Of a stretch of DNA of 58,671 bases, positions 16,951-55,670 are shown piece by piece. The DNA is taken from positions 1-58,671 of the forward strand of contig JAHILF010000083.1 of the NCBI GenBank assembly GCA_018897105.1. The letters are read 5' to 3'. A program made the translations under genes and the position numbers. Numbering within the stretch: the stretch's first letter is position 1; each line of letters begins with the position of its first letter. The DNA comes from Pseudomonadota bacterium. GTDB taxonomy: Bacteria; Desulfobacterota; Desulfobulbia; Desulfobulbales; SURF-16. A model generated the notes under the pieces. That model did not search any database. It worked only from the letters and a program-made list of their open reading frames with translations, and had not been told where the DNA came from.

Positions 16951-17208
16951 ATGAAGAGAGATGTATTACAAGAGAAAATCCTGACCATCTTGGTGGATGA
17001 TTTTGAATTTGTCCAGCCGGGGCTTGATGACAACCTCCGGGACGATCATGGTTTTGACAGTATCGATGCCATAGAACTCCTGGGTAAAATAGAGGGCATC
17101 CTCGGCTTAGCCCTCACCCGGGAGGAAAAGGAAAAGGCCATGGAGATCAGGACCATCAACGATATTCTTGATTATATCGAATTAATAGAATCATCTCGCA
17201 CTACATAA
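16951..17208 (+). CDS. Acyl carrier protein
   Basis: 85 residues of predicted four-helix ACP with the phosphopantetheine attachment motif GFDSIDAIELL (Ser37). It opens the plus-strand unit ACP, ketosynthase, PlsC, two radical SAM proteins. It is one of four ACP genes in the cluster, and their sequences around the serine differ (GFDSID, GTDSLD, GIDSMD, GIDSID), suggesting each serves a different partner. The product carries acyl intermediates as thioesters in the cytoplasm. Which enzymes it serves is inferred only from position. Confidence 0.92.
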   Translation: MKRDVLQEKILTILVDDFEFVQPGLDDNLRDDHGFDSIDAIELLGKIEGILGLALTREEKEKAMEIRTINDILDYIELIESSRTT

Positions 17209-17225
17209 GCCGCATCAGAAAGCCA

Positions 17226-18476
17226 ATGAAACGACGTGTTGTCATTACAGCCTGTTCCGCCATCACTCCCATCGGATGGCATAAAAACGACATCGTTGAC
17301 AGCCTCAGACAGGGGAGATCCGGCGTCAAGCCCCTGCGGGATGATGGACTGCTGAACAGGCATATTCATTCCCGGGTCTTTGGTACGGTGGATTATCCCA
17401 TAGATTACGGGTTCAAACGGCAGTACCGCAAGACCATGGGGCCGGTGGCCTATTATGCCTGCCAGGTAGCAAAGGATGTCCTGGAGCAATCGGGACTCGA
17501 TCAGCAGTTTATTACTTCCGGCCGTCTGGGAGTGGCTTTCGGTTCAACCCATGGCAGCCCCACGGTCCAGCGCGATATCTACCGGACATTTTTCCAGGAC
17601 CTGGACGCAAAATTTTCCTCCATCGGCGCGGTGGATTATCTCAGATCAATGGTGCATACCACCGCGGTGAACATCACCAGGATGTTCGGTATTACCGGCC
17701 GGGTCATTGCCTCGTCCACCGCCTGTACGACCAGCAGTCAATCCATTGGTTTCGGTTATGAAATGATCAGGTACGGCATGCAGGATGCCATGATCTGCGG
17801 GGGCGCCGATGAGTACGACACCACAACCGTGGCGGTTTTCGACAACCTGCTGGCCTGCTCCACCGCCTATAATGACACACCGCAGCGTACCCCCCGTCCT
17901 TTTGACAGTGGCCGCGACGGCCTGGTGGTGGGAGAGGGCGGCGGGGCCGTACTCCTTGAGGAGTATGAATCGGCGAAAAGACGCGGGGCCAGGATTCTGG
18001 GCGAGATCCTCGGGTTTGGTTGTAACAATAACGGCGGCGATCTTATTCTGCCCAACCTGGAAGGCATCTCCACCACCCTGCGCCTGGCTCTGCAGGACGC
18101 GGGAATCTCTGCGGGGGAGGTGGATTTTGTCAGCGCCCATGCCACGGGCACCAAAATGGGAGATGTGATTGAGGCTCAGGCCATCGATGCGGTGTACGGT
18201 GACCACCTTCCCTTTGTCACCGGCCTGAAGAGTTATATGGGCCATACCATGGGAACCTGCGGCGTGATTGAGATGATTTTAACCATCTACATGATGGAGC
18301 AGGGTTTTATTGCTCCCACCCTGAATCTTGAACATGTGGATGAGCGCTGCAGCATGCTGCGGCATGTTCGGGAAGTGACTCAGGCTGACATCCGCATCGG
18401 CGCGATTCAGAACTTTGCCTTTGGCGGGGTCAATACCTGTCTGATCTTCAAGGCCGGCAAAGAGGTGGACGAATAG
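17226..18476 (+). CDS. Beta-ketoacyl-ACP synthase II (FabF-type)
   Basis: 416-residue condensing enzyme with the full Cys-His-His triad: Cys167 in SSTACTTSS, His305 in HATGTKMGD, Lys335/His340 in KSYMGHTMG. It should extend an ACP-bound acyl chain with malonyl-ACP by decarboxylative condensation. It starts 17 bases after the ACP gene. Within the cluster it is one of four FabF-type domains, each different in sequence, so a special chain or position is likely. It groups with a PlsC acyltransferase and two radical SAM genes downstream. Confidence 0.93.
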   Translation: MKRRVVITACSAITPIGWHKNDIVDSLRQGRSGVKPLRDDGLLNRHIHSRVFGTVDYPIDYGFKRQYRKTMGPVAYYACQVAKDVLEQSGLDQQFITSGRLGVAFGSTHGSPTVQRDIYRTFFQDLDAKFSSIGAVDYLRSMVHTTAVNITRMFGITGRVIASSTACTTSSQSIGFGYEMIRYGMQDAMICGGADEYDTTTVAVFDNLLACSTAYNDTPQRTPRPFDSGRDGLVVGEGGGAVLLEEYESAKRRGARILGEILGFGCNNNGGDLILPNLEGISTTLRLALQDAGISAGEVDFVSAHATGTKMGDVIEAQAIDAVYGDHLPFVTGLKSYMGHTMGTCGVIEMILTIYMMEQGFIAPTLNLEHVDERCSMLRHVREVTQADIRIGAIQNFAFGGVNTCLIFKAGKEVDE

Positions 18477-18519
18477 TTGATTGCTTCGTATTTCCCCTTG
18501 GGTAAAAGTGCTGGTGACG

Positions 18520-18592: not shown

Positions 18593-18606
18593 AGTTCTTT
18601 TCCGAC

Positions 18607-19359
18607 ATGAGGAATGGTCTGTTAAGCGATTTTGTTGTAACCATTATCTGCTGGGTTTGGTTCACACTGGGTTTTATTTTGTTCTTTTCATGGCGTTATG
18701 TTGCCGCAGTCTTGTTCGCGCACGAGACGGAGAGCAGCATTCAGCGACTGAACAGCCGTTTTTATCAGGTTTTATTTCGCATAATCAGAGTTACTGCACC
18801 TAATCACACATGGGAGATTGATGAACAGGTGGCGGCAATCCGGTCTGCGGTAATCGTTTGCAACCATCTCTCCTATCTGGATCCATTGCTGCTGATTGCA
18901 CTTTTGGAACGTCATCGCACCATTGTGAAAACGCGTTTTTTTACGATGCCGATCTTTGGCTGGGTATTAAAAAAAGCGGGCTACCTGCCTGCATCAGGGA
19001 AAGGGCAATTCGCCGGCATGATGATCGATCAGTTGGAGTCAATGAAGAGTTTCCTGCAGCGTGGCGGCAATCTCTTTATTTTCCCGGAAGGAACCAGAAG
19101 CCGGGATGGGAAAATCGGCAATCTGAACCGGGGCGCCCTGAAAATTGCCCGGCTGTGCAATGCCCCTGTTTATGTGCTGCAGCTTGCCAATACGGATAAA
19201 CTCTTTACGCCGGGTAAATTTCTTTTTAATACCAGGATAACCAATACAATCAGTCTGAAGATAATCGATTGTATCCAGCCGACCCACCCCGACAATATGC
19301 CGTCTACCGCCATACTTGAACAGAGGGTACTCAAGGCATACCGAAAGCAACAGAAATGA
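18607..19359 (+). CDS. 1-acyl-glycerol-3-phosphate-type acyltransferase (PlsC family)
   Basis: 250 residues. An N-terminal membrane segment (about 10-35) is followed by the acyltransferase motifs NHLSYLD (catalytic His87 and Asp92) and FPEGTRSRDG, the standard NHX4D and EGTR blocks. It should transfer an acyl group, probably from an ACP in this setting, to a lysophospholipid-like acceptor at the inner membrane. It overlaps the following radical SAM gene by four bases. Its place in the cluster suggests that it puts the finished chain into a glycerolipid, which is inference. Confidence 0.9.
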   Translation: MRNGLLSDFVVTIICWVWFTLGFILFFSWRYVAAVLFAHETESSIQRLNSRFYQVLFRIIRVTAPNHTWEIDEQVAAIRSAVIVCNHLSYLDPLLLIALLERHRTIVKTRFFTMPIFGWVLKKAGYLPASGKGQFAGMMIDQLESMKSFLQRGGNLFIFPEGTRSRDGKIGNLNRGALKIARLCNAPVYVLQLANTDKLFTPGKFLFNTRITNTISLKIIDCIQPTHPDNMPSTAILEQRVLKAYRKQQK

Positions 19360-20846
19360 AGGTCATTCTAATATCCATGCCCGATGTGGTACCGATCATC
19401 ATCCATGAAACCGCGGTTCACATGCCCAATCACGGCATAGCATCGGTTGGCGGTAATATTGATGAAGACCATGATGTCTATCTGATCGATCTGATCCGCA
19501 AGCGCCGCTCCATTAAAAAATATCTGGCCAAGGTCATCAAACAAATCAAGCCTGACCTGATAGGCCTGTCGGCCATGGCATGGCAGTATGATACCTGTAT
19601 CAAGATTGCCCACCTGATCAAGGAACTCCGCCCCGAGGTCAAGATCGTTATCGGCGGCTACCACGCCACCCTGATGTATGAGGAAATAGCCAATTCCGCG
19701 GAAGCGAAGTGGATTGACTTCATGATACGCGGAGAAGGCGAGGAGGCGTGCCGGCGATTGGTGAATGCCCTGGACAACCGTGATGATCTGGCTGCGATTG
19801 CATCGCTTTCCTTCAAAAAAGACGGCGTTTTTATCCACAACCCCCGGGGTGAAAATCTTGACCTGAGTAAACTCAAACTGCCTATCCGGGATAAGCGCAG
19901 ACTCACCTGGGGCTACCATCTCATCTACTCCAAGATCGAACTGGTCGAGACCTCCAGGGGGTGCACCCGGTCCTGTAACTTCTGTTCAATGAAGCACATG
20001 TATGGCCGCACCTTCAGAACCTACCCTATCAGCCGCGTCCTGGCAGATATTGATGATATTTATTACAAGCGCAAGACCAGATGGATATTTATTACGGATG
20101 ATAATATGGTGCTGAACCCTGGCAGGGTGATGGAACTCTGCGATGCGATCATTGCCAGGAACTATAAGGGGCTTAATCTTGTGGTTCAGGCTGATTGCAT
20201 ATCCATGGCCACCCAGGAGAAGATGGTTGCCAGGATGGCAGCGGCGGGATTCCGCTCCGTTTTTCTCGGCATTGAAAATGGCTCAGTTAAGAATATGAGC
20301 AGTGCCGGAAAAGGTGACATTGTCGCCTATGCAAAAAAGGCCATTGATAACTGCCATAAATACGGCATGATGGTGATCGGCGGCCTGATCTTCGGGTTTG
20401 CGGATGACGATGAAGCATCGATCAGAGAAAATTACGAATTTTTCAAACATATCGGCGCAGATGCCTCTTACTGCCAGATCCTGACCCCATACCCCAGGAC
20501 CGCCATGCGTGAGCAGCTTATTGAACAGGGGCTGGTGACCAATGAAACCGATTATAAAAAGTACAGCGGTCTGTGGGCCAACGTGCGAACAAAGCATCTT
20601 GACTCGGAACAGCTCCAGTATCAGTTCTGGTACCAGCGCCAGGTTGTGCTCGGCTGGTGGAACCCGCCGGAGCCGGCAAGACGCCAGGGCAGGATGTGGA
20701 CCTCTATCTGGCGCTTTCTCTTCAAGCCTTTTCTGAAGATACGCTATCAGAGGATTATGGATAAATATGGCTGGGAAGGCCGCTATCGGCTGGAAGTTGC
20801 CCGCTGGGAACGAATGAATCGCTTTCAGGACCTCGAGCAGTACTAA
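19356..20846 (+). CDS. B12-binding-domain radical SAM protein
   Basis: 496 residues. Residues 1-140 look like a cobalamin-binding Rossmann domain (LIGLSAMAWQYDT, VIGGYHATLMYEE), but no DXHXXG base-off motif is seen. The radical SAM cluster motif is RGCTRSCNFCSM (Cys203, Cys207, Cys210), followed by a TIM-barrel with FITDDNMVLNP and FLGIENGS. The C-terminal 80 residues are rich in Trp and Arg. Family members perform methylations, ring closures or other radical C-C chemistry on unreactive carbons. Here a lipid or ACP-bound acyl chain is a plausible substrate. It is translationally coupled to PlsC upstream and four bases from the next radical SAM gene. Confidence 0.9.
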   Translation: MKVILISMPDVVPIIIHETAVHMPNHGIASVGGNIDEDHDVYLIDLIRKRRSIKKYLAKVIKQIKPDLIGLSAMAWQYDTCIKIAHLIKELRPEVKIVIGGYHATLMYEEIANSAEAKWIDFMIRGEGEEACRRLVNALDNRDDLAAIASLSFKKDGVFIHNPRGENLDLSKLKLPIRDKRRLTWGYHLIYSKIELVETSRGCTRSCNFCSMKHMYGRTFRTYPISRVLADIDDIYYKRKTRWIFITDDNMVLNPGRVMELCDAIIARNYKGLNLVVQADCISMATQEKMVARMAAAGFRSVFLGIENGSVKNMSSAGKGDIVAYAKKAIDNCHKYGMMVIGGLIFGFADDDEASIRENYEFFKHIGADASYCQILTPYPRTAMREQLIEQGLVTNETDYKKYSGLWANVRTKHLDSEQLQYQFWYQRQVVLGWWNPPEPARRQGRMWTSIWRFLFKPFLKIRYQRIMDKYGWEGRYRLEVARWERMNRFQDLEQY

Positions 20847-20850
20847 AAAT

Positions 20851-21909
20851 ATGCAGATATATAATTTTGAATTTACCGAAGAGGAAATCCGCGAGGCCGC
20901 GGTTGCGGACAGGCTCCTTTCCATGGAGATCGAGTTCAGCCGCGTTTGCAACTTCCATTGCTCCTACTGCTATGTGCCTGATCAGAAGGAATTTAAGCAT
21001 GAACTTTCCAGGGCGGAAATCAAAGATGTCATTCTGCAGGCCAAGGAGCTGGGGGCACGCAAGATTATCATCCTGGGCGGAGAACCAAGCATCTATCCAC
21101 ATCTGGTTGAAATGCTTTCCTTCATCGCCAATGAGGGTCTTGAGATTGAAATGTTCACCAACGGCTCCGGAGTCGATAAAAAGCTTGCCGCCATCCTGGC
21201 GGAAAAGAAGGCGCGGGTTGTCTTGAAATTGAATTCCAGAAACGAGGCGATCCAGGACCAGCTGGCCGGCAAAAAAGGGGCATTTGTGACCATCAACCGG
21301 GCCTTGGGCGCCCTGCAGGAGGCGGGTTATCCTTCCGGTGATCTGTTTCTGGCCATGAGTACGGTGATATGCAGGCAAAACATCAAAGAGTTGCCGGCTA
21401 TGTGGCAGTGGCTGCGGGAAGAAAAAATAGAACCCTATTTTGAAATCATCACCCCCCAGGCCAATGCCAGCAAGAATAGCTGGCTTATGGTCGATTCCGG
21501 CGAGTTGCAGAGGTTGTTCGTGCAGCTTTCGGAGATCGACAAGGAGCGGTTCGGCAGTCACTGGGAGCCCCAGCCACCGCTGGTCGGGCATAAGTGTATG
21601 CGCCACCAGGTCTCCTGCGTGGTCACCGCCACCGGCGATGTCATGCCCTGTGTCGGGGTTACCATTGTGCTGGACAATATCCGCAACAACAAACTCGCCC
21701 ACATTCTGCAGCACAGCGAGGTGGTCACCAACCTGAAAAATTACAGGGAGACGATCAAAGGGGAATGCCACAGCTGTGAAAAAGCCGACGAGTGTTACGG
21801 CTGCCGCGGGGCCGCCTACCAGCTCACCGGCGATTATCTGGCCTCGGACCCCACCTGCTGGCGCAACGCTTCAGGTGCTCTCGCCTGCGCGGAAAATACC
21901 AAATCATGA
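20851..21909 (+). CDS. Radical SAM protein with SPASM-like C-terminus
   Basis: 352 residues. The SAM-cluster motif is SRVCNFHCSYCYV (Cys33, Cys37, Cys40), with the GGEPSIYP motif after strand 2. The C-terminal region has many cysteines (HKCMRHQVSC, MPCVG, CHSC, ECYGCRG, TCW), matching the SPASM/Twitch pattern for extra Fe-S clusters. Such enzymes modify peptides, sugars or small molecules; no peptide substrate is encoded nearby, so the acyl chain or headgroup is a candidate. It is the last gene of the first plus-strand unit. Confidence 0.9.
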   Translation: MQIYNFEFTEEEIREAAVADRLLSMEIEFSRVCNFHCSYCYVPDQKEFKHELSRAEIKDVILQAKELGARKIIILGGEPSIYPHLVEMLSFIANEGLEIEMFTNGSGVDKKLAAILAEKKARVVLKLNSRNEAIQDQLAGKKGAFVTINRALGALQEAGYPSGDLFLAMSTVICRQNIKELPAMWQWLREEKIEPYFEIITPQANASKNSWLMVDSGELQRLFVQLSEIDKERFGSHWEPQPPLVGHKCMRHQVSCVVTATGDVMPCVGVTIVLDNIRNNKLAHILQHSEVVTNLKNYRETIKGECHSCEKADECYGCRGAAYQLTGDYLASDPTCWRNASGALACAENTKS

Positions 21910-21935
21910 TGGCTTCCTGAAAGGCGTTGCCACAT

Positions 21936-22009: not shown

Positions 22010-22036
22010 ACCATAAGTGACTGTATACAGTCCGGC

Positions 22037-22294
22037 TCAGCTGTTGTCCCTGATATAGGCGGCAAGGGTTGCCAGGGACTGTAACACGACCCTGCTCGTA
22101 TTCTCCGAGTCCATTCTGACTCCGTATTCCTTCTGAACAGTTACGGCGATCTCCAGGGCATCCAGGGAATCGGTTCCCAGGGGGGATTCCGGGCCGATCA
22201 AAGGGTCATCAGGACCAATCTTATCCAGGTCCACATCGTCAAGGTTGCAGGTGGTGCATATCAGTTCGAGAAGCTCTTGCTGTAAAGGATCCAT
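22037..22294 (-). CDS. Acyl carrier protein
   Basis: 85 residues with attachment motif GTDSLDALEI (Ser43) in an ACP helix II context. The spacing before it (DDPLIGPESPLG) is like that of the ACPs used by aryl-polyene-type and specialised type II systems. It is the last gene of the minus-strand unit PagL-like, small HTH-like, BtrH-like, ABC ATPase, ABC permease, ACP. An ACP beside a BtrH-like acyltransferase suggests it presents the acyl group which that enzyme moves. Confidence 0.92.
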   Translation of the reverse strand: MDPLQQELLELICTTCNLDDVDLDKIGPDDPLIGPESPLGTDSLDALEIAVTVQKEYGVRMDSENTSRVVLQSLATLAAYIRDNS

Positions 22295-22343: not shown

Positions 22344-23642
22344 TCAGAAGCGGGAATGTCGTGTCCCCGCCAGTTTCCAGGCGAAAAGTGCAGTCAGTGC
22401 AAAAAACAGCAGCAACCTGCCAAGGTCATCGAGGATGGCGGGCAGGGAATTTCCCCGCAATAACAGGTCCTGAAAGGCTGACAGTCCCCAGTTGAGCGGC
22501 GAGATGATGCTGAGGCGCTGCATGGCATGTGGCATGGCATACACCGGCACCATGATGCCACCGATGGCCGCAGCGGTCACCACCGAGGTGGCACCCACGG
22601 TTGATGCCTGTTCGTATGAGTTGCAGGCCATGCCCAGGAAGATGCCATAGCTGCAAGCCGCAAGGCTTGCAAGCAGCACGGTCAGCAGCACCGCGGGCAG
22701 TTGCGCGGAAATGGTAAAGGCGGGGAGCCCGATGCAGGGAAACAAATAGGCACCGATAAGGGCAATGAGCAGAAACTGGCAGAGACAAACGCCCATATAG
22801 GCCGTTGCCTTGCCGCCAAAGAGCACCAGCGGGGAGACCGGCAGGGCACGCAGGCGGGTCCAGATGCCTGAGTTTCGCTCCTGGATGATTGCCCCGGCAA
22901 TGGGTATGGCGGTAAAAAACATGCCAAACAATGCCCAGGCCGGTACATTCTGCTGGACCGGATTATAGGGGGCGCCGCCGGCCGCCTGCCGGGGGCCGTG
23001 AATTTCTTTCAGGGACAGAAGGGGCTGTTCGAGAAGCTCAGGGAGATTGAGGCCAGGCAGTGGCATGAATTCTTGCGGCACAGGCAAACCGCTCATCGCT
23101 TCCTTGAGTCTCCTGTCCAGGATCGTAAGTTTGGCCTGCATGGCAATGGTGGTTAATGCCATTTGCAGCTGCGCATTAATACCGGAACGTAATCCCGCCA
23201 TGATCAGGGGATCAAAAAAGACTTGCACGAAAGTCGGGCCCGCGGTCTGTCCCGTCATCTCCTCCTTGTTCTGCCGGAAAAGGCGGGCCGTCTCCTGCTT
23301 GAAATGGGCAGATGCGTCCCTGGGTAAGATAATTCCGATCTGGTAATCACCTGCCTTTACAGCGGCCCGGATATCTGCCTCATTCTTCTTCCCATCCCAT
23401 TGCTCAATCAGGAGATTGCCTTTTTCCAGCTGTTTTTCCAATGATTGGCCAAGATCCCCCTGATCCAGATCGAGCAAGACCACTCGAGTTTTCTTCTGTC
23501 CGGTGAGTTCCATGACATTTTCCTGCACCAGGGTAATCACCACCACCAGGATGGCGGGCATCAGGAACAGGACGAGCAGACCGGCCCGGTCGCGCAACAG
23601 CAGCAGCAGTTCTTTGGTGGTTGCCGCCATTATTTTCAGCAT
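22344..23642 (-). CDS. ABC-2 type transporter permease
   Basis: 432 residues. One N-terminal helix (RAGLLVLFLMPAILVVVITL), a large extracytoplasmic domain of about 190 residues, then five helices with the ABC-2 hallmark ERNSGIWTRLRALPVSP and the PLNWGLSAFQDLLLRG segment near the end. This is the YhgE/DrrB/CcmB-like exporter fold. With the ATPase gene 40 bases upstream it forms one transporter. Given its ACP and acyltransferase neighbours it is expected to export a lipid-like product across the inner membrane. Confidence 0.92.
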   Translation of the reverse strand: MLKIMAATTKELLLLLRDRAGLLVLFLMPAILVVVITLVQENVMELTGQKKTRVVLLDLDQGDLGQSLEKQLEKGNLLIEQWDGKKNEADIRAAVKAGDYQIGIILPRDASAHFKQETARLFRQNKEEMTGQTAGPTFVQVFFDPLIMAGLRSGINAQLQMALTTIAMQAKLTILDRRLKEAMSGLPVPQEFMPLPGLNLPELLEQPLLSLKEIHGPRQAAGGAPYNPVQQNVPAWALFGMFFTAIPIAGAIIQERNSGIWTRLRALPVSPLVLFGGKATAYMGVCLCQFLLIALIGAYLFPCIGLPAFTISAQLPAVLLTVLLASLAACSYGIFLGMACNSYEQASTVGATSVVTAAAIGGIMVPVYAMPHAMQRLSIISPLNWGLSAFQDLLLRGNSLPAILDDLGRLLLFFALTALFAWKLAGTRHSRF

Positions 23643-23682: not shown

Positions 23683-24462
23683 TCAGACGTCGCGAAGCTC
23701 CTTGCCGGTCAGATGCAGGAACAGCTCTTCCAGGGTGGACATCCCGCTGTTGCGCAGCAATGCCACGGGGGACCCTTGGGCCACCGGCCGACCGTTATCC
23801 ATGATGCAGAGCCGGCCGCACAGCTCCTGGGCCTCTTCCATGTAATGGGTGGTGTAGAGAATGGTGGTTCCCCGCCGGTTGAGATCCCGCAGCTGCTCAT
23901 GGATCAGGTGTCTGGATTGGGCATCGATGCCGACGCACGGTTCATCGAGGACCAGTACCTGCGGATCATTCAAGAGGCCCGCCGCCAGATTCAGACGTCG
24001 CTTCATGCCAAAGGAAAAAGTGGCAACAGGACGTGCGGCATTTTCGGTAAGACTGACAAATTCAAGATTCCGCTGGATCTTCTCGGTCAGTCTCTTTCCT
24101 TTGATCCCATACAGTTTTCCGAAAAAGGTAAGGTTTTCCCGGGCAGTGAGTTTATCATACAGCCCGATATCCTGGGGGACCAGCCCGAGAATCTGTTTGA
24201 TTTGGTGATGCTTTTCCCGATAACCCATGCCCATGAGCCGGACCGTGCCGCTATCAGGCGGCATCAGGCCGGTGAGAATTGCGATGGCCGTAGTTTTTCC
24301 GGCCCCATTCGGTCCCAGCAGGCCAAAAAATTCCCCCTGCCGCACCTCAAGACTGAAATCATCCAGGGCCGGACGGAGGGTATTTTTGTACCGTTTGCAT
24401 ACTGCGACAGCGGAAAGGGCAGGGCATTGCTCCTGGGCCGGCAGGCGGGAATTGCCGGACAT
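23683..24462 (-). CDS. ABC transporter ATP-binding protein
   Basis: About 259 residues. Walker A GPNGAGKTT, Q-loop LVPQDIGLY, a signature region TFSFGMKRRLN in place of LSGGQ, Walker B VLVLDEP and H-loop TTHYMEEA. The degenerate signature is common in drug/lipid exporter ATPases. The start at ATG 24462 lies in the ATGATG that overlaps the stop of the BtrH-like gene, with GGGAG just upstream, so they are coupled. It pairs with the permease at 22344-23642. Confidence 0.93.
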   Translation of the reverse strand: MSGNSRLPAQEQCPALSAVAVCKRYKNTLRPALDDFSLEVRQGEFFGLLGPNGAGKTTAIAILTGLMPPDSGTVRLMGMGYREKHHQIKQILGLVPQDIGLYDKLTARENLTFFGKLYGIKGKRLTEKIQRNLEFVSLTENAARPVATFSFGMKRRLNLAAGLLNDPQVLVLDEPCVGIDAQSRHLIHEQLRDLNRRGTTILYTTHYMEEAQELCGRLCIMDNGRPVAQGSPVALLRNSGMSTLEELFLHLTGKELRDV

Positions 24463-29133: not shown

Positions 29134-29193
29134 GTTGGTTAATTGTGTCAACAAGTATAAGCGGCCGGGTTGTGGCTCCTTGAAACAAAATTA

Positions 29194-31653: not shown

Positions 31654-31687
31654 TGTGATTTGGAATCATAACAGAGAGGAGACAGTA

Positions 31688-44287: not shown

Positions 44288-44372
44288 GATGCATACCACA
44301 AGTAGTCGTTTGCGTCCACCTAAATTGAGCTGCTGAAATGAGGTAAGGTGGTGGACGAGATCAGCAGAATAG

Positions 44373-47071: not shown

Positions 47072-47200
47072 TTTTTTCGCTATTTGGTAAGCTCACAGCG
47101 GGTAGGCCGCAGAGTGGAGTGACAGTAAGGGAGCATTGGATATTTGCTGAAAAGCAAGGAGCCGTACTTTGGGCAGCTCCATAAAGCCATCTTTATTATT

Positions 47201-48489: not shown

Positions 48490-49079
48490 TGAAACATCTG
48501 CTCCTTATCGTGCTGACCCTGCTGGTGCCCATCCGGGCCCTGGCCGGAGAGCCGACCCAGCAGATCCCGGTCCGGCTGCACTCCGTGCAGGCCGATTTCG
48601 TGCAGGAAAAGCATCTGAAGATCCTGGCCCGCCCCATCATCTCCACCGGCACCTTCATCTTCCAGGCTCCCCAGTCGTTGCGCTGGGAATACCAATCGCC
48701 CATTGCCTCCGTTCTGCTCATGCATGACGGCAAGTTGAAAAAATATATGGAACATGACGGCAAATTCCAGGAAGAGAGAGGGATGGGGCTTGATTCCATG
48801 CAGGTGGTGCTGGCTGAGATCTCCAATTGGCTGGACGGTCGTTTTACCGACAACGAAATGTTTACGGTGTCGTTTCCGGATAAACAGACCATCCTGCTGA
48901 CCCCGAAGGAACAGGGCTTTGCCGCCCTGATCAGCAGAATCCGGCTCAAACTGGCGGATCAGCAGGGCCTGCTGGACGAGGTGACGATTTTTGAGGGTCC
49001 AGATTCCTATACCAGGCTCACCTTCACTAACAGTATTCTCAATCGAGAGATCCCTGTTTCCCGGTTCAACGTAAGATGA
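48489..49079 (+). CDS. LolA-like outer membrane lipoprotein carrier
   Basis: 196 residues with a signal peptide (KHLLLIVLTLLVPIRALA) and the LolA-like segments VQADFVQEKHLKILARP and SLRWEYQSP. LolA-like proteins in aryl polyene clusters shuttle lipid-like cargo across the periplasm. The GTG start overlaps the fabG stop (TAGTG) and the end overlaps the following lipoprotein gene by four bases. Confidence 0.88.
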   Translation: MKHLLLIVLTLLVPIRALAGEPTQQIPVRLHSVQADFVQEKHLKILARPIISTGTFIFQAPQSLRWEYQSPIASVLLMHDGKLKKYMEHDGKFQEERGMGLDSMQVVLAEISNWLDGRFTDNEMFTVSFPDKQTILLTPKEQGFAALISRIRLKLADQQGLLDEVTIFEGPDSYTRLTFTNSILNREIPVSRFNVR

Positions 49080-49750
49080 AACCATCTGCTTTGCCCCTGC
49101 TTCTCCTGCTGCTGTGTCTTGCCGCCTGTACCACCCAAAGCCGGATGTCCCTCCCGGAACTGACTGTAATACAAGATGAAACAAGCCGTGGGGACTGTAC
49201 GGTGATTTTTCCCCAAGGGCGCTGGCAGTTTACCCATGCCATTGATTTTTCCCTGGCGGACGGCTCCGGCACCATTGTAATCGGGGTCACCAGCCTGGAC
49301 GGCGATGAGCTTGCCTGCGTCCTCATGACAATCGAAGGCTTCACCCTTTTCGAGGCGATTTACCGGGAGGGCGAGGTCCTTGAAGTCCGGCGGGCGGCGG
49401 CTCCATTTGACAAGCCAGCCTTTGCCGAGGGATTAATGCATGATGTGCTGATGATCTTTCAGACGCCCGCTGCTGAAAAGGTGCGCTACGGCCACCTGGC
49501 CGACAATACGCCGGTGTGCCGCTTCACCGGAGATGACGGCTGGATAACGGATATCATGCTCACCGCGGATGGGTGCTGGCAGATCAATGCCTTCACGCCG
49601 GAACTGACCAAGGACCGTTCCCTGGTCGGCCGGTCATGCCGCAGCATGGACGACACCCCGATCCCGGCATATCTTGAACTGCAGAATCTCGGCCGGGCGG
49701 GCTACACCCTGAAGATGCGCCTGATAAGTGCAGAAAACCTGAATAGATAA
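49076..49750 (+). CDS. DUF3261-like lipoprotein
   Basis: 224 residues. Lipoprotein signal with lipobox LAAC in the first 20 residues. The body (CTVIFPQGRWQFTHAIDF, TSLDGDELACVLMTIEGFTL) resembles the DUF3261 lipoproteins that accompany LolA and MMPL genes in aryl polyene clusters. It probably acts at the outer membrane as acceptor of the exported material, in the way LolB works with LolA. That role is inferred. Confidence 0.8.
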   Translation: MKPSALPLLLLLLCLAACTTQSRMSLPELTVIQDETSRGDCTVIFPQGRWQFTHAIDFSLADGSGTIVIGVTSLDGDELACVLMTIEGFTLFEAIYREGEVLEVRRAAAPFDKPAFAEGLMHDVLMIFQTPAAEKVRYGHLADNTPVCRFTGDDGWITDIMLTADGCWQINAFTPELTKDRSLVGRSCRSMDDTPIPAYLELQNLGRAGYTLKMRLISAENLNR

Positions 49751-49758: not shown

Positions 49759-51024
49759 ATGAAATTTAAACTGATCTATCCCAAATGGGCCAAACTGGAC
49801 AGGCAGACCGAGTTCCATCTGCCGCCCCACGGACCGGTGGTCTTTGCCGCCGCATTGCCCGACTATGTTACTGTCGACTTTGTTGATGAGAACCTGGAAC
49901 CAATTGATTTTGAAGAGGAGATTGATTTTGTCGGTATCTCCATGATGTTGACCGTGCAGGTCAACCGGGGCTGGGAGATTGCCGACATCTACCGGAAAAA
50001 AGGAATCAAGGTGATTTTTGGCGGTATTGCCACCATGCTGCACGCACGGGAAACCATGGAGCATGCGGATGCCGTCTTTCTTGGCGAGGCCGAAAGCCGC
50101 ATGGAGCAGGTCTTTGACGATTTTCAGCAGAACAGGCTGCAGCCATGTTACGATTTCCTCGACCAGAGACCTGATATCGCCCTGGTGGGGCCGGCGCGGC
50201 GGGATATCCTCAACCGCAGACTTTATAACTACAAGGGCGTGCAGATGGTTGATCTCGTGCACGCCTCGCGGGGCTGTCGCTTCAATTGCTACCCGTGTGC
50301 GGTATCCTATCTGGGCGGGCGGGTGTTTCGGCCGCGGCCCATTGACAAGGCGGTTGCCGAAATCGCCGGCATCGACAATAACAGACTCTTTATCGTTGAC
50401 AACTCCCTGGCCCAGGATACCAGGTGGGAGATGGATCTGTTCCGGGAAATGATCCCGCTGAAAAAGAAATGGTGCTCCCATCCCATTGAAGACAAACCGG
50501 AGGTCCTTGACCTGGCTGCCCAGGCCGGTGCCTGGTATGTCTATCAGGCGGTCTTCGATACCTCGGATTACATCAAGGAGCGGATCAGACGCTACCACGA
50601 TCATGGCATCGGGGTAGAGGGAACGATTCTGCTGGGACTTGACACCCATACCGAGGATTTTATCAAACGGCTGATCGATTTTCTCCTGGAGATCGAGCTT
50701 GACCTGGCGGAATTCACGGTGCTGACTCCCTTCCCCCACACCAGGGCCTATGCCGAGCTGAGTCAGCAGAACCGCATTCTCTCCCATGACTGGAATGACT
50801 ACTCAGCGGACAAGGTGGTGTTTCAACCCAAACACATGAGCCCGGAAAGACTGCAGGAACTGCTTGCCTATGCCTGGGACACCTTTTATCAGGATGAACC
50901 CCAGAAGATCAAGATGGTGAAGCTGTTTCAACAGGTGGTGCAGAAGGAGATGGCTGATAATACCTTTAAACCGCGGGACAGAAATCTAGCCGGCCGTTCC
51001 TTCGGCCAGCCGGTGCACAGGTAG
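49759..51024 (+). CDS. B12-type radical SAM protein
   Basis: 421 residues. A shortened cobalamin-like N-domain (EIDFVGISMMLTVQ, IKVIFGGIATMLHA) has no DXHXXG motif. The SAM cluster motif is SRGCRFNCYPC (Cys173, Cys177, Cys180), with Pro at the position after the second Cys pair where aromatic residues are common. VFDTSDYIKERI and LLGLDTHTEDF follow. It is the third B12-domain radical SAM protein of the cluster and sits between the export lipoprotein and the AMP ligase, so it likely acts on a precursor rather than the exported product. Confidence 0.88.
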   Translation: MKFKLIYPKWAKLDRQTEFHLPPHGPVVFAAALPDYVTVDFVDENLEPIDFEEEIDFVGISMMLTVQVNRGWEIADIYRKKGIKVIFGGIATMLHARETMEHADAVFLGEAESRMEQVFDDFQQNRLQPCYDFLDQRPDIALVGPARRDILNRRLYNYKGVQMVDLVHASRGCRFNCYPCAVSYLGGRVFRPRPIDKAVAEIAGIDNNRLFIVDNSLAQDTRWEMDLFREMIPLKKKWCSHPIEDKPEVLDLAAQAGAWYVYQAVFDTSDYIKERIRRYHDHGIGVEGTILLGLDTHTEDFIKRLIDFLLEIELDLAEFTVLTPFPHTRAYAELSQQNRILSHDWNDYSADKVVFQPKHMSPERLQELLAYAWDTFYQDEPQKIKMVKLFQQVVQKEMADNTFKPRDRNLAGRSFGQPVHR

Positions 51025-51036
51025 TATGGAGGAAGC

Positions 51037-52395
51037 GTGTTGATGGATATTGACGGCAGTATAAAAAATCTCTTACAGGGCCCGAAGTTTCCGGACCGGG
51101 AGTTTGTCCGTTCCGGGGCCACCTTTGGCGACGTCTATGCAATGGCAGCCGGGTTGCGTGCTGCATGCAACCTGCCGGAGTATCAAGGGGCAGCTGTCTG
51201 TCTTGCCTCCGATAACAAGGCCGTTATGGCTGCCGCCCTGCTGGCCGCCCTGGTCGGCGGCCCCTCGCTGCTCCTGCCCTACTCCTTTTCCGCCCCGGCC
51301 CTGGCCCGGCTGCAACAGCTGTCCGGTTTTACCACGGCCATTGCCGACGTTGCCAGGGAATTTCCCCAAGGCACCGCTGTCATCCGTCCCGAACCGGGAA
51401 ACCCGGCGGAACTGGCGACGGCCACCCCGGTCTTGCCCGGCACGGAACTGCTTAAAATTTTCACCGGCGGCACCACCGGCGCGCCCCAGGTCTGGGCCAA
51501 AACCAGGGAGAATATCTTCGGGGAGGGCTTTAACCTCTTCCAGCACTTCCAGGTAACGGAAAAGGACTGCATTGTGGCCACGGTGCCGCCTTATCATATC
51601 TATGGTCTGCTTTTTTCCGTTCTTCTGCCCCTGCTCTCTTCGGCCACGGTCATTGCGGACACCCCCTCCTTTCCGGGTGAGATAGTCGGCGCCGTGCTGG
51701 AGCACGGGGCCACCGTTCTTGCCAGCATACCCGCCCATTACCGGACATTGCACGGCAGAAACCTGGAGAATTCGTCCCTCCGGCTGGCCTTTTCCTCGGC
51801 CGGCATGCTGGACGCAGAGGACAACGAAGCATTTTGTCGCCAGAATAAGCTGGGGATCGTGGAGGTATACGGATCCACTGAAACCGGCGGCATTGCCACC
51901 AGAAACAGGTTCCTGGGCGAAACACATTTTACTCCCTTTCCCATTGTTTCCTGGAAGATCAGGGATGATCGCATCTGCGTGCAGTCACCCTTTCTCTCAC
52001 CTGATCTTACCCGGGAGGATGATGGCTTTTTTACCAGCGGCGACCGGGTAGAGGCCGGCGGCATAAACGGTTTTAGCTTGCTGGGACGGATCGACGGGGT
52101 GACCAAGGTGGGGGGGAAACGGGTTGATCTTGAAGAGGTACGTACAATCATCAAGAAAGAACCCGGCGTCAGGGACTGCGTGGTCATGGCCCTGCCCGCC
52201 TCGGGTGGGCGCCAATACCGGCTTGCGGCCCTGATTCAGGGAACCTCGGTGGATGTCGATGTGATGAGAAACAGGCTGGCCGATTCCCTGGAATCATACG
52301 CTCTGCCGCGTCTGATCAGAACCGTCCAGCGGATTCCACTCAAGGAGAACGGTAAATATGACCGGGAGGCAATCATCCGTTTATTTGAATCATGA
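51037..52395 (+). CDS. Acyl-activating AMP ligase
   Basis: 452 residues of the ANL superfamily: P-loop-like FTGGTTGAPQ, YGSTETGG, and the hinge/C-terminal segment GRIDGVTKVGGKRVDLEEV with the terminal Lys in LKENGKYDR. The domain is short, as in the ApeH-type ligases that load an acyl or aryl starter onto an ACP. Starts GTG 51037 and ATG 51043 both fall after GGAGG. With no aromatic starter gene in view, the substrate could be a fatty or other acid. Confidence 0.88.
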   Translation: MLMDIDGSIKNLLQGPKFPDREFVRSGATFGDVYAMAAGLRAACNLPEYQGAAVCLASDNKAVMAAALLAALVGGPSLLLPYSFSAPALARLQQLSGFTTAIADVAREFPQGTAVIRPEPGNPAELATATPVLPGTELLKIFTGGTTGAPQVWAKTRENIFGEGFNLFQHFQVTEKDCIVATVPPYHIYGLLFSVLLPLLSSATVIADTPSFPGEIVGAVLEHGATVLASIPAHYRTLHGRNLENSSLRLAFSSAGMLDAEDNEAFCRQNKLGIVEVYGSTETGGIATRNRFLGETHFTPFPIVSWKIRDDRICVQSPFLSPDLTREDDGFFTSGDRVEAGGINGFSLLGRIDGVTKVGGKRVDLEEVRTIIKKEPGVRDCVVMALPASGGRQYRLAALIQGTSVDVDVMRNRLADSLESYALPRLIRTVQRIPLKENGKYDREAIIRLFES

Positions 52396-54101
52396 GTAGC
52401 ATGCGTAAGGCATTTGCCGCTGGTTACCATAATCTTTCAGCCTGGGCGGATCTCCTGGACCGGATCAATGTGTTTCCCGTGGCGGACGGCGATACCGGCG
52501 CCAATCTGCGCATCAGCCTGGCCCCGTTGCGGGACTCGGCAACAGTGGCGGCACGGACCAGGGAGCTGCTGGCCCGGTGCGCCATCGGCAACTCCGGCAA
52601 TATCGCTGCCGCTTTTTTCCAGGAGTTTTGCCGTGCCCAAGGGTTTGGCGATCTGGCCGGGCAGGCGGCACAGGGGCGGGATAATGCCTGGCAGGCCCTG
52701 GCCGCACCCCGGGCCGGCACCATGCTTGATGTCTTTGACGCCATGGTGCCGGCCCTGGCCGGCAAAACCGATGCGGTACAGCTGTATCCCATGGTCTGCC
52801 GGGAGTTGTCTGCCGTGGTGCGGGCTACCTCCGGGATGCTGCCGGACCTCAGACAGGCAGGGGTGGTGGATGCCGGGGCGCTTGGCATGTATGTCTTCTT
52901 TGAGGGGTTTTTCAGGCAGCTTGCCGGGCAGAGCAAGCCACCTGCCTCTATCCTTGAGTTGTTCGCCGGTAAACTGACGATCAACGCCGCTTTTCAGGCT
53001 ATATCCACGGGCAGTTACTGCGTGAACGTAGTCATTGATACCGGGACCAGGCAGGCAGGCGCTGATAAGGGCCTGGCAGCACTCGGTGAAAGCGTGGTGG
53101 TGCTCCCGGCCGAGACAGGGTTCAAGGTACATGTCCATACCGGGGACCGGCAGCAGTTGCGCGCCCGGCTTGCCGCGTTGGGGGAAATTGTCCACTGGTC
53201 CGACGAGGCCATCGAGGCAGGAGATGTTGCTGGATTTGCCGATCCGGCAGGAAAACAGGTTGTGCACATCATGACTGATGCCGCAGGATCGCTGACCAGG
53301 GAGATGGCAAGGCATCACTGCATCACCCTGCTTGACAGCTATATCCTGGCCGGCGACGACAGCAGACCGGAAAGCCTGTGCTCCCCGGCGGATATCTATG
53401 CCCTGATGCGCGCGGGCAGCAAGGTAAGTACGGCCCAGGCCTCCCTTTTTGAGCGGCACCAGTACTATCAGAGCGTGTGTCAGCGGTTCGGCCGCACCCT
53501 GTACCTCTGCGTCGGTTCCGTGTTCACGGGGAACTATGATGCTGCCAGGCGCTGGAAAGAAGATAATGACCCCCACGACCTGCTGCAGGTCATGGATACC
53601 GGGGCCGCCTCCGGTCGGCTGGGCCTCATCGCCCTGCTCGCCGCCCGCTTCTCCGAACATGCCGCCAATGCGGATGATGTTGCGGCATTTGCCGGCAGAA
53701 TCATGGATGACTGCCGGGAGTATGTCTTTATCGACGAACTGCACTACCTGGTAAGCGGGGGAAGGGTTTCCAGGACTGGAGGTTTTCTGGCTGATCTGCT
53801 CCACATGAAACCTGTGATCAGTCCGACCAGGGAGGGGGTGCGCAAGGCAGGCGTGGTCCACAGCCGCAAGGGGCAGCTCTCTTTTGCCCTGGAGAGGCTG
53901 CAGGATAAGTTTGCCGCCTCTGCCGCTCCGGTGATCCTGCTCCAGTACTCCGATAATGAGGCGTGGGTGGCTGAAACGGTCCAGCCCCGGGTGCGTGAGT
54001 TGCTGCCGGGCGCCGAGATCCTGCTTACGCCCCTGTCGCTGACCTCCGGGGTGCACATGGGCCCCGGAACCTGGTCCCTGGCCTGGGCAGGCGGCAAGTG
54101 A
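52392..54101 (+). CDS. FakA-FakB-like fusion (DhaL domain plus DegV domain)
   Basis: 569 residues joining two normally separate proteins. Residues 1-180 are a DhaL/DAK2 ATP-binding domain (NVFPVADGDTGANLRISL, with the metal-binding Asp pair, then GNSGNIAAAFFQEF and the VVDAGALGMYVFFEG motif). A FakA-like middle domain follows (VVVLPAETGFKVHVHTGD). About 285-569 are a DegV/FakB fatty-acid-binding domain (VVHIMTDAAGSL, RVSRTGGFLADLLHMKP and a SGVHMGPGTWSLAWA C-terminus). FakA phosphorylates the fatty acid held by FakB. Fused, this would make an acyl-phosphate from a free fatty acid, offering a starter or a recycling route for the cluster. Confidence 0.88.
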   Translation: MSSMRKAFAAGYHNLSAWADLLDRINVFPVADGDTGANLRISLAPLRDSATVAARTRELLARCAIGNSGNIAAAFFQEFCRAQGFGDLAGQAAQGRDNAWQALAAPRAGTMLDVFDAMVPALAGKTDAVQLYPMVCRELSAVVRATSGMLPDLRQAGVVDAGALGMYVFFEGFFRQLAGQSKPPASILELFAGKLTINAAFQAISTGSYCVNVVIDTGTRQAGADKGLAALGESVVVLPAETGFKVHVHTGDRQQLRARLAALGEIVHWSDEAIEAGDVAGFADPAGKQVVHIMTDAAGSLTREMARHHCITLLDSYILAGDDSRPESLCSPADIYALMRAGSKVSTAQASLFERHQYYQSVCQRFGRTLYLCVGSVFTGNYDAARRWKEDNDPHDLLQVMDTGAASGRLGLIALLAARFSEHAANADDVAAFAGRIMDDCREYVFIDELHYLVSGGRVSRTGGFLADLLHMKPVISPTREGVRKAGVVHSRKGQLSFALERLQDKFAASAAPVILLQYSDNEAWVAETVQPRVRELLPGAEILLTPLSLTSGVHMGPGTWSLAWAGGK

Positions 54102-54102
54102 G

Positions 54103-54804
54103 ATGATGGCCGCAGTCATCATACCGGTCTATAACCATGGCGGGCGGATTGGCGAGGTGATCCGGCAGGCGCGGTCGCTTGATCTGCCTATTATCGTGGT
54201 TGACGACGGCTCAACCGATACCACCTCTGCTATTCTCAGCAACTTAACAGAAATCTCCGTTATTCGTCACCCGGTCAACCAAGGCAAGGGGGCGGCCCTG
54301 CTCAGCGGTTTTGCCGCGGCGCTGGCGCAGAATTGTAACTGGGCGATCACCATTGACGGAGACGGCCAGCACAATCCTGAGGATGCCCGGCTTCTGCTGC
54401 AGGCGGCGGCGCAAGCCGGACGCACCCTTGTCGTCGGCCGACGGGAGGGAATGGCGGGGAAAAACGTGCCCTGGACCAGCAGGTTCGGCCGCGGGTTTTC
54501 CAACTTTTGGGTATGGGTTTCCGGCGGGCCGTTCATCAAGGATTCCCAGTCGGGTTTCCGACTCTATCCCCTACCGGAATCCCTGTACCTGAATGTTAAG
54601 GCCAGGCGCTACCAGTTCGAGGTGGAGATACTGGTCAGGGCCAGGCGGAGAGGAATTGCTATCATCGAGGCGCCGGTACAGGTTGTGTATCAGGACCGGG
54701 GAGAACGGGTCAGCCATTTTCGGCCATGGGTGGATTTCTGGCGAAACTCATCCACCTTCTGCCGGCTTATTTTTCTGCGTATTTTCGGGATATTCCTGAG
54801 ATGA
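54103..54804 (+). CDS. Glycosyltransferase family 2
   Basis: 233 residues of the GT2/DPM1-like fold: VIIPVYNHGGRIGEVIRQ, VVDDGSTDT, ITIDGDGQHNPEDARLL (metal-binding DxD-like acidic run), and SGFRLYPLP. The C-terminal helix (FCRLIFLRIFGIFL) may contact the membrane. In aryl polyene clusters a GT2 is usually fused or adjacent to a lipid acyltransferase, as here (overlap of four bases with the next gene). It should add a sugar to a lipid carrier or to the product's head. Confidence 0.9.
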   Translation: MMAAVIIPVYNHGGRIGEVIRQARSLDLPIIVVDDGSTDTTSAILSNLTEISVIRHPVNQGKGAALLSGFAAALAQNCNWAITIDGDGQHNPEDARLLLQAAAQAGRTLVVGRREGMAGKNVPWTSRFGRGFSNFWVWVSGGPFIKDSQSGFRLYPLPESLYLNVKARRYQFEVEILVRARRRGIAIIEAPVQVVYQDRGERVSHFRPWVDFWRNSSTFCRLIFLRIFGIFLR

Positions 54805-55670
54805 GGTTTTCCTGGTACAACCTGCTTATCAGGTTGACAAGGCTGTGCGGCCCCTGGTTGCTGGCCCTCGTCTCCAGGGGCATAGCGGCGGGTTATTTTC
54901 TTTTTTCCGGTAAGGTCCGGGAAAGCCGTCGTTTTTATGCGGCGCTCTTTCCTGCGCGGGGAAGGCTCTACCACCTGTGGTGCACCTTCAGGCAGTATCA
55001 GAATTTCACCACCATTCATCTTGACCGCTACCTGGCGAGCGCAACCGATGCCACGACATTCACCTCCCAGGGCTGGGAAAAACTGGAATCCGTCATCGGC
55101 CGGCAGGGGGGTATTCTTCTCATGTCCCACCTGGGCAACTGGGAAACAGCGGCCCGCCTGCTCCGGCAGCTGAAGAAGGACCTGAAGCTCCTTCTGTACA
55201 TGGGCGTGAAAGAGAAAGAGGGGGTGGAGCGCTTACAGAAAGAGGATTTGCGACGTACCGGGATCACCATCATCGGCGTCGATCAGGGGGGCAGTTCGCC
55301 CTTTGCCGCCGTGGAGGGCATACGGTTTTTACAGGCAGGAGGGGTGGTATCCATGACCGGAGATATCCTCTGGCGCAATGATCAACGCAAGGTCCGCGTC
55401 ACCTTCCTGGGGCATGATGCCTATCTTCCGGAAGCTCCCTATGTTTTTGCCATGATCTCCGGCGCCCCGCTTTTTGTCTTTTTTGTCTTCCGTACCGGTA
55501 AAAACAGCTATCACTTTACCCTGTCGGATCCCATTGAAATCAGACCAGAATCCCGCCGGCACCGGGAGTTGGCCATTGGCAGAGCTGCCCAGCAGTATGC
55601 GGACCAGCTGGAAAAAATGCTGCGCGAGCATCCCTTCGAGTGGTACCATTTTGATAATTTTCTCCGGTGA
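54801..55670 (+). CDS. LpxL/HtrB-like lipid acyltransferase
   Basis: 289 residues from ATG 54801, overlapping the GT2 stop. The acyltransferase motif is MSHLGNWETA (catalytic His110, Glu115, HX4E), with an N-terminal amphipathic/hydrophobic helix for membrane contact and a GDILWRND region later. LpxL-type enzymes use acyl-ACP as donor, so this is a plausible final transfer of the polyene or modified chain to a glycolipid acceptor. It is the last gene of the cluster. Confidence 0.9.
   Translation: MRFSWYNLLIRLTRLCGPWLLALVSRGIAAGYFLFSGKVRESRRFYAALFPARGRLYHLWCTFRQYQNFTTIHLDRYLASATDATTFTSQGWEKLESVIGRQGGILLMSHLGNWETAARLLRQLKKDLKLLLYMGVKEKEGVERLQKEDLRRTGITIIGVDQGGSSPFAAVEGIRFLQAGGVVSMTGDILWRNDQRKVRVTFLGHDAYLPEAPYVFAMISGAPLFVFFVFRTGKNSYHFTLSDPIEIRPESRRHRELAIGRAAQQYADQLEKMLREHPFEWYHFDNFLR

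Follow-up and report, generated by a model that had tools for sequence, protein, structure and literature searches.

The DNA analyzed here (hereafter the window) is a stretch of 58,671 nucleotides from a Pseudomonadota bacterium of the order Desulfobulbales (SURF-16; assembly GCA_018897105.1, contig JAHILF010000083.1), located on contig C43 in a draft genome of 4.95 Mb. Between positions 16951 and 55670 it carries a gene cluster that includes a dialkylresorcinol (DAR) block, in which the gene beside darB encodes a radical S-adenosylmethionine (SAM) protein, rSAM3, in the place of the aromatase DarA. We placed 38 genes in this interval, in seven strand runs and with a coding fraction of 0.95 when overlaps are counted twice (Table 1). 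A Pfam scan covered 36 of them, and the other two were scanned with NCBIfam. A preliminary description made from the sequence letters had proposed a contiguous 39-kb gene set at this location, and this was borne out. Much of the inventory given there also agrees with Pfam and NCBIfam, including four acyl carrier proteins (ACPs), a fused ketosynthase-chain length factor (KS-CLF), three further FabF-type ketosynthases (KSs), FabG, an AMP ligase, a thioesterase, an MMPL exporter, an LpxL-like acyltransferase, a dehydratase of the polyketide synthase (PKS) type, a BtrH-like protein and an ATP-binding cassette (ABC) exporter. Six radical SAM proteins were likewise listed, and all six have the CX3CX2C motif, with three passing the Pfam Radical_SAM cut-off. 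The clue that was overlooked is the DAR set itself, which consists of DarB, DarH, DarG, an ACP and the ABC exporter.

The polyene-resorcinol pigments known so far are products of DarA/DarB pathways. The gene that had been taken for a KAS III enzyme instead encodes a ketosynthase of the StlD/DarB family, because its product scores 546 bits against the NF005293 model (cut-off 450); it also aligns over almost its entire length with the StlD structure 5gk0 (401 bits). DarH (NF053550, 471 bits, cut-off 300) and DarG (NF053536, 111 bits, cut-off 70) likewise pass their NCBIfam cut-offs. With all three families above curated cut-offs, we regard the class of the cluster as settled. A BtrH-like acyltransferase (DarH), a DarG-family protein, an ACP and an ABC exporter, as expected for polyene-dialkylresorcinol clusters, are all present, and the acyltransferase and exporter lie within a few kb of DarB. 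The expected DarA aromatase beside DarB is missing, and there is no DarA-like match anywhere in the genome at E 1e-25 or 1e-20, using a query that was named by position.

The combination of a polyene and a dialkylresorcinol is the plan of the flexirubins and arcuflavins, as outlined in PMC3992019. In the loci reported in the cited passages, darA adjoins darB directly, both in Azoarcus (azo0292/0293; PMC3949708) and in Chitinophaga pinensis (Cpin_6850/6851; PMC3992019), and a Pseudomonas darA mutant is described as making no HPR resorcinol (PMC6403133). The order ACP, permease, ATPase, BtrH-like protein and small protein in the window resembles the Azoarcus dar operon, where two additional small genes separate permease and ATPase and where the BtrH-like protein is tabulated as darE, but is called DarH in NCBIfam (PMC3949708). 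According to the same source, the arcuflavin genes of Azoarcus sp. BH72 share with the window DarB, the BtrH-like protein, an ACP, the ABC permease and ATPase, small dar proteins and a KS, together with the polyene genes for LolA, glycosyltransferase, acyltransferase and exporter. Unlike this system, the window forms one contiguous cluster (the Azoarcus loci are unlinked; PMC3949708), has rSAM3 in the place of DarA plus five further radical SAM genes, and contains no recognized chorismatase among its scanned genes, a scan that did not include a search for the XanB2 family. With the flexirubin clusters of C. pinensis and Flavobacterium johnsoniae, insofar as PMC3992019 presents them, the window shares Dar genes, a polyene set of KS, ketoreductase and dehydratase, a putative polysaccharide deacetylase, LolA, a glycosyltransferase and an exporter. 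FlxB- and LolA2_flexi-like proteins occur as well, both under their family cut-offs. Unlike the flexirubin cluster, the window lacks a PF00221 ammonia-lyase and a DarA-like match, and it has radical SAM enzymes added.

An rSAM3 gene in the DarA position recurs among DarB-carrying genomes. Whole-genome searches of 58 genomes (the relatives, with the window genome included) gave DarB matches in 49 at E 0.001, 22 of which (at most 43 bits) were set aside as other ketosynthases, which leaves a full-length or nearly full-length DarB in 27. rSAM3 is present in 23 of the 58 genomes (E 1e-50) and a DarA-like protein in four (E 1e-20), each with a copy whose coordinates adjoin DarB. No relative has both, and neither protein was found at these thresholds in the 31 relatives that are DarB negative. 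Individual drafts have blemishes: G048 carries a DarB split into two pieces, the rSAM3 of G017 is incomplete, and a second rSAM3 copy in G009 sits at a contig end. A separate draw of 297 genomes from the phylum, for which at most the best six DarB or best five rSAM3 candidates per genome were scored, yielded DarB in 21 (E 1e-50), rSAM3 in 12 (at least 52% identity), and a DarA-like protein in eight (E 1e-25). All 12 rSAM3 and all eight DarA-like proteins adjoin DarB, none of these genomes has both, and the remaining DarB genome (G102) has a fragment of a DarA-like gene where a contig ends. A further 22 rSAM3-like matches in the phylum have at most 37% identity and come from genomes without DarB. 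When the two draws are pooled (five genomes are common to both), 43 DarB genomes divide into 30 with rSAM3 and 13 with a DarA-like protein. The association of DarB with rSAM3 gives Fisher p values of 2e-12 for the relatives and 4e-16 for the phylum, in both cases with descent ignored.

A scan of named genomes with an rSAM3 alignment gave a similar picture. Among the best 80 of 154 confirmed loci, 79 have rSAM3 immediately before DarB in the same orientation, and in the other (L087) the contig ends at this point; a DarA-like match was found in none of the 80. These are loci rather than genomes, with two (L082 and L084) sharing one metagenome-assembled genome (MAG). Because some are the same contigs as those of the relatives (e.g., L079 and G005), the two sets are not independent. 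Judged by title, most hosts belong to Desulfobulbaceae/Desulfocapsaceae, Desulfuromonadales, Geobacter, Syntrophus or unplaced Deltaproteobacteria, and there are also two Holophagaceae and two Verrucomicrobia MAGs. The host groups of the rSAM3-DarB pair are anaerobes. In one Syntrophus MAG (L123) the pair is duplicated, such that two rSAM3-DarB pairs occupy one 21-kb locus. Another pair is on a contig of 4.3 kb (L111) assigned to a Neptunomonas MAG; this contig groups with a Desulfopila-labelled record and is possibly misbinned. In one open-access literature library, none of the matches listed joins flexirubin with radical SAM enzymes, a result that speaks for that library and not for print as a whole. 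In the same library, the matches for "dialkylresorcinol" plus "radical SAM", as far as their texts are given there, concern only cyanobacterial enzymes, and no entry combines at least three of StlC, StlD, isopropylstilbene and aromatase.

The rSAM3 protein has a B12-binding domain (PF02310, 50.2 bits, cut-off 32.1) and a radical SAM domain (PF04055, 45.3 bits, cut-off 29.5), and the three cysteines of its CX3CX2C motif are invariant in all 38 aligned rows. Its closest NCBIfam family along most of its length is HpnR, the hopanoid C-3 methylase, although the score of 170.6 bits is far under the 650-bit cut-off and the gene, unlike that for HpnR, is tied to darB; the next family, BchE, is far under its cut-off at 106 bits. 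A profile search of the PDB with rSAM3 returned TokK, TsrM, AprD4, MgmA (9ccb) and OxsB, all as weak matches. An AlphaFold model of rSAM3 (mean predicted local distance difference test score 90.3) is closest to AprD4 (Z 34.8, root-mean-square deviation 2.7, 400 residues), whose structure is titled a radical SAM 1,2-diol dehydratase. The next neighbors are MgmA, TsrM, OxsB and CysS at Z 28-30, with the methylases MgmA and TsrM at about 29. AprD4 is cobalamin-independent. However, rSAM3 could share this fold and still catalyze a different reaction. Most likely, rSAM3 would modify the ring made by DarB, either by C-methylation or by aromatization. Methylation is the main reaction with which cobalamin-dependent radical SAM enzymes are associated, albeit with notable exceptions (PMC13142503, in the portion cited), and we therefore lean modestly toward C-methylation of the ring or its chains. 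If such a methylation were to create a quaternary carbon, this would explain why DarA is useless in these organisms.

DarB appears to work in the same way with either partner. In an alignment of 116 DarB rows, which includes duplicate contigs and one Streptomyces plasmid and from which five short or broken rows were dropped, the Cys-His-Asn triad is invariant in 103 of 103 rows of the radical type and 13 of 13 of the DarA type, and no column is diagnostic of the partner at the chosen threshold. Thus, the chemistry of DarB looks the same in both types, and the difference would be in the next step. Two relatives (G025 and G042) combine a DarA-type DAR block, whose DarB is 51% identical to that of the window, with KS1, rSAM1 and rSAM2 proteins that are 70-87% identical. 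The same range holds for KS2, KS3, rSAM4 and rSAM5 in G025 and for rSAM6 in G042, with lower values for KS-CLF (49% in G025) and PlsC (51-52% in both). Because these genomes pair a DarA-type block with window-like KS and radical SAM genes, the two kinds of DAR block look interchangeable. Next to the DAR block of G042 (L038:11425-13477) are also genes for an oxidoreductase that resembles phytoene desaturase by eye (L038:11425-12918) and for a small membrane methyltransferase-like protein that is under its cut-off.

Table 1. Genes placed in the cluster, with the basis for each assignment (+ and - denote strands).
Gene or product	Position	Strand	Basis
ACP1	16951..17208	+	PP-binding
KS1, FabF-type ketosynthase with Cys-His-His kept; inferred role	17226..18476	+	Pfam, NCBIfam, sequence by eye
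PlsC-type acyltransferase; inferred ApeD-like role	18607..19359	+	PF01553
rSAM1, B12-binding + radical SAM; BchE/HpnJ-like under cut-offs	19356..20846	+	Pfam, NCBIfam, CX3CX2C
rSAM2, radical SAM/SPASM	20851..21909	+	Pfam, NCBIfam, CX3CX2C
ACP2 of DAR block	22037..22294	-	Pfam; synteny
ABC-2 permease of DAR block	22344..23642	-	Pfam
ABC ATPase of DAR block	23683..24537	-	NCBIfam
DarH (NCBIfam name), BtrH-related acyltransferase	24462..25469	-	NF053550
DarG-family protein (NCBIfam name)	25485..25910	-	NF053536
PagL-like outer-membrane protein	26016..26678	-	PF09411
SAM methyltransferase MT1	27027..27836	+	Pfam; matched in 1/24 relatives' neighborhoods (G005)
Partly U32-like protein	27934..29133	+	PF01136 over 65 residues; matched in 1/24 relatives' neighborhoods (G005)
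rSAM3, B12-binding + radical SAM, HpnR-like; next to darB in place of darA	29170..30495	+	Pfam, NCBIfam, genome searches
DarB/StlD ketosynthase, triad C125-H304-N339	30499..31653	+	NF005293; PDB 5gk0
DUF4410 protein, putative lipoprotein	31646..32296	+	Pfam
Polysaccharide deacetylase family	32293..33114	-	Pfam
MMPL exporter (ApeM-like) fused to methyltransferase domain	33118..36174	-	Pfam
Weak GT25-like protein, 297 aa	36179..37072	-	Pfam
PKS-type dehydratase	37581..38429	-	PF14765
4HBT thioesterase (ApeK-like)	38426..38908	-	Pfam, NCBIfam
KS2	38905..40170	-	Pfam, NCBIfam
KS3, active-site Cys kept	40182..41432	-	Pfam, NCBIfam
rSAM4	41456..42454	-	CX3CX2C; Pfam 23.0 bits, under 29.5 cut-off
rSAM5	42467..43567	-	CX3CX2C; Pfam 27.5 bits, under cut-off
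ACP3	43527..43781	-	Pfam
ApeI/FabZ-like dehydratase	43940..44299	-	FabA-like 33.8 of 23 bits; ApeI-like 27.1 of 28.5
Fused KS-CLF, ApeO-ApeC equivalent, 723 aa	44373..46544	-	Pfam, NCBIfam
ACP4	46541..46807	-	Pfam
ApeP-like dehydratase	47144..47641	+	PF22817 22.2 bits, under 27 cut-off
FabG/FlxB-like ketoreductase (ApeQ-like)	47752..48489	+	FabG 291 of 273 bits; FlxB 286 of 340
LolA-like protein, LolA2_flexi best match	48489..49079	+	91.7 of 125 bits
Putative lipoprotein in ApeN position	49076..49750	+	Position, lipobox-like start; no Pfam match
rSAM6, B12-binding + radical SAM	49759..51024	+	B12-binding 39.5 of 32.1 bits; Radical_SAM 21 of 29.5; CX3CX2C
AMP ligase; inferred ApeH-like role	51037..52395	+	Pfam, NCBIfam
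DAK2-DegV fusion, fatty-acid-kinase-like (FakA + FakB)	52392..54101	+	Pfam, NCBIfam
GT2 glycosyltransferase, first half of ApeJ-like pair	54103..54804	+	Pfam
LpxL-like acyltransferase, second half of ApeJ-like pair	54726..55670	+	Pfam

The genes outside the DAR block include the core of an aryl polyene (APE) cluster, namely KS-CLF, two dehydratases, a ketoreductase, ACPs and an AMP ligase. The ApeI/ApeP-like dehydratases of the preliminary description are present, but each is under the cut-off of its own Pfam model, with the FabA-like model exceeded by the first. In the set for envelope transport, MMPL is over its cut-off and the LolA-like protein is under the cut-offs; the DUF3261-like gene proposed earlier (DUF3261/ApeN) found no Pfam confirmation at E 0.001, and ApeG is also unconfirmed. 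The U32 assignment rests on a PF01136 match to just 65 residues of the family; the low counts for this gene and MT1 in Table 1 come from 24 neighborhoods of relatives, several of them truncated where a contig stops. By predicted function, there are counterparts in the window of ApeC, D, E/F, H, I, J, K, L, M, O, P, Q and R of Escherichia coli CFT073, with ApeJ split in two as GT2 and LpxL-like genes (the ape genes as given in PMC8253772). Unlike the E. coli cluster, the window has KS-CLF fused, MMPL fused to a methyltransferase, and the additions of the DAR block, a DAK2-DegV kinase-like gene and six radical SAM genes; ApeG is not recognized. The MMPL fusion is 1018 aa long with the methyltransferase at its C terminus, and matching open reading frames in G014 and G025 encode 1019 aa. 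By eye, the Cys-His-His residues are kept in KS1, KS2 and KS3 as well as in the KS portion of the fusion, whose CLF half is without the Cys. A polyunsaturated fatty acid synthase was considered and rejected, with the KSs far below the TIGR02813 cut-off. Just after the cluster (55944-58455) come a Fic/DOC gene, a gene of unknown function and one for a SMODS nucleotidyltransferase, which are perhaps CBASS-like defense genes.

As the preliminary description held, there is no ammonia-lyase or chorismate-lyase starter gene, since neither PF00221 nor PF04345 has a match in the genome at E 0.001, in searches that did not extend to XanB2-type chorismatases. The E. coli APE cluster is likewise described as lacking a starter gene and is thought to use UbiC (PMC8253772). 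Therefore, the missing starter gene is not in itself unlike an APE cluster. However, a UbiC (PF04345) match is absent from this genome. The DAK2-DegV fusion suggests a fatty-acid-kinase-like step, and therefore possibly a non-aryl starter.

The B12-binding domain is over its cut-off in rSAM1, rSAM3 and rSAM6, and rSAM2 has a SPASM domain. The calls for rSAM4, rSAM5 and rSAM6 rely on the motif plus partial matches because these proteins are below the Pfam cut-off. Orthologs of rSAM4 (at least 82% identity) occur in 14 of the 58 genomes, 11 of which have DarB, and rSAM6 has matches in 31. Close rSAM6 proteins (at least 79%) accompany rSAM4 in 13 genomes, including that of the window; in nine of these the two genes are on one contig within about 16 kb, and in the remaining four they are on separate contigs of drafts. 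G025 has rSAM4 and no rSAM6 match at E 1e-60. Where neighborhoods were read, rSAM5 accompanies rSAM4. Given this shared occurrence and neighborhood, we assign rSAM4, rSAM5 and rSAM6 to the polyene module. In several relatives ACP1, KS1 and PlsC have rSAM1 and rSAM2 as neighbors; at 45% identity or more, rSAM1 is in five and rSAM2 in 15 of the 24 neighborhoods, and G005 has this set without rSAM1. Thus, the radical SAM genes recur in the same neighborhoods of relatives. Elsewhere in the genome, one contig (G000:C53, about 12-66 kb; L163-L165) holds 15 radical SAM matches, with neighbors that by eye resemble glycosyltransferases, sugar-nucleotide enzymes and methyltransferases. This is perhaps a large surface-polysaccharide locus rich in B12-type radical SAM genes.

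We consider it likely that the product of the cluster is a polyene lipid of the outer membrane, one that functions in the manner of a flexirubin or arcuflavin, in an anaerobic lineage where rSAM3 fills the DarA slot. This retains the part of the preliminary description that proposed an envelope lipid made without oxygen, with which the hybrid polyene/lipid cluster and relatives known as anaerobes agree, and drops the ladderane analogy to which it was attached. The gene content, the families of DarB, DarH and DarG, and the alternation of rSAM3 with a DarA-like protein beside DarB are observed here; each chemical step of the following pathway is predicted. The polyene module (AMP ligase, ACPs, fused KS-CLF, ApeI/ApeP-like dehydratases and FabG), assisted by KS2/KS3 and rSAM4/5/6, would assemble an ACP-bound unsaturated acyl chain. 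DarB would join two fatty-acid intermediates to form a 1,3-cyclohexanedione ring, and rSAM3 would then act on this ring or on its alkyl substituents, at the point where known pathways use DarA for aromatization. DarH, together with ACP2, would join the polyene and the ring, and LolA, MMPL, the ABC exporter, GT2 and the acyltransferases would carry and anchor the product.

Several observations count against this interpretation. The window DarB does not reach the stricter DarB model NF053539 (446 of 550 bits), and the closest structure to rSAM3, AprD4, is not a methylase. With no starter gene found, "aryl" is unproven. The DarA candidate used in our searches owes its name to where it lies, to a weak flavodoxin match and to its presence next to DarB, and it has no DarA match in NCBIfam or the PDB. 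Three Streptomyces plasmid records carry a 31-32% relative of this candidate, labelled hypothetical, at coordinates that adjoin a DarB relative. On a tree of 101 DarB proteins built by a quick method, the rSAM3 type arises by a single change on a weakly supported branch (support 54), with the DarA-type rows falling outside its branch and needing three changes. Therefore, the alternation is essentially one evolutionary event, and the sequences look like one replacement by rSAM3 that was afterwards kept and spread. Oxygen alone cannot explain the swap, because DarA-like proteins occur in 13 of the 43 DarB-positive genomes of the same phylum, and this weakens an account in which the lack of oxygen precludes DarA. 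Finally, three plasmid relatives of DarB from outside the phylum (37-41% identity) show no annotated DarA or radical SAM neighbor in gene tables that are incomplete, so DarB may also stand without either partner. These plasmids belong to Bacteroidota and Pseudoalteromonas (L159, L160, L161).

The strongest rival to this interpretation is that rSAM3 is an oxygen-independent aromatase that dehydrogenates the cyclohexanedione in place of DarA, such that the product is an ordinary dialkylresorcinol ester. The use of the same gene slot in strict alternation with DarA, the need for DarA in Pseudomonas noted above, and the dehydratase title of AprD4 are all consistent with this possibility. However, the best sequence family of rSAM3 is a methylase, and the AprD4 family profile gives just 17.8 bits, which makes an aromatase the less probable of the two activities. 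We are more doubtful still that the cluster comprises two independent neighboring pathways, one for an APE-like lipid with rSAM4/5/6 and one for a DAR-type compound with rSAM3, and yields no hybrid molecule. Three genomes have rSAM4 but not DarB (G006, G031 and G057), which indicates that the polyene module can occur without the resorcinol part and is a further point against a single product, and the modules are about 80 kb apart on one contig of G050. Yet most rSAM4-positive genomes do have DarB, genes of the two modules alternate along the window and likewise in G005 and G025, and DarH and the ABC exporter lie close to DarB.

A third proposal was that the cluster is of the ladderane class, in which, as has been suggested for anammox bacteria, a polyene undergoes radical cyclization to concatenated cyclobutanes. 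As set out in the relevant part of Rattray 2009 (PMC2649909), this reading for Kuenenia and Desulfotalea relies on divergent copies of FabF together with genes for radical SAM and phytoene-desaturase-like proteins. The window shares with those clusters many KSs and other genes like those of type II fatty acid synthesis, radical SAM genes, a membrane protein, an AMP ligase and a polysaccharide deacetylase (PMC2649909). Moreover, "ladderane" calls by antiSMASH have been published for Desulfobacterota MAGs from the Cariaco Basin, where the reported calls also include Verrucomicrobiota (PMC9902471). However, the three B12 radical SAM proteins score only 98, 47 and 42 of the 360 bits required by TIGR04072 (rSAM_ladder_B12), the best score in the genome is 159, no phytoene-desaturase-like family is recognized in the scanned genes of the cluster, and DAR genes are present instead. 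On the TIGR04072 scores and the lack of a phytoene-desaturase-like gene among those scanned in the cluster we rejected the ladderane reading, which we judge to be very improbable.

Flexirubins have served as markers of Bacteroidetes, according to PMC3992019. We would tentatively suggest, with less confidence than for the general nature of the product, that a radical SAM enzyme displaced DarA across an entire anaerobic lineage with flexirubin-like pathways. This would provide either the first radical dialkylresorcinol aromatase or a class of C-methylated, non-aromatic cyclohexanedione pigments, with a polyene starter from outside the tested aryl-starter enzymes. Because several DSM culture-collection strains carry the rSAM3-darB pair, among them Desulfogranum mediterraneum DSM 13871 (L095), Desulfofustis glycolicus DSM 9705 (L094) and Desulfuromusa kysingii DSM 7343 (L131), the question is directly testable. 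Perhaps some of the "ladderane" calls that software makes in such genomes also have this alternative explanation. If true, a cobalamin-type radical SAM gene in the place of DarA would represent a new enzyme for lipid biosynthesis, and pigments would be predicted in culturable sulfate and metal reducers.

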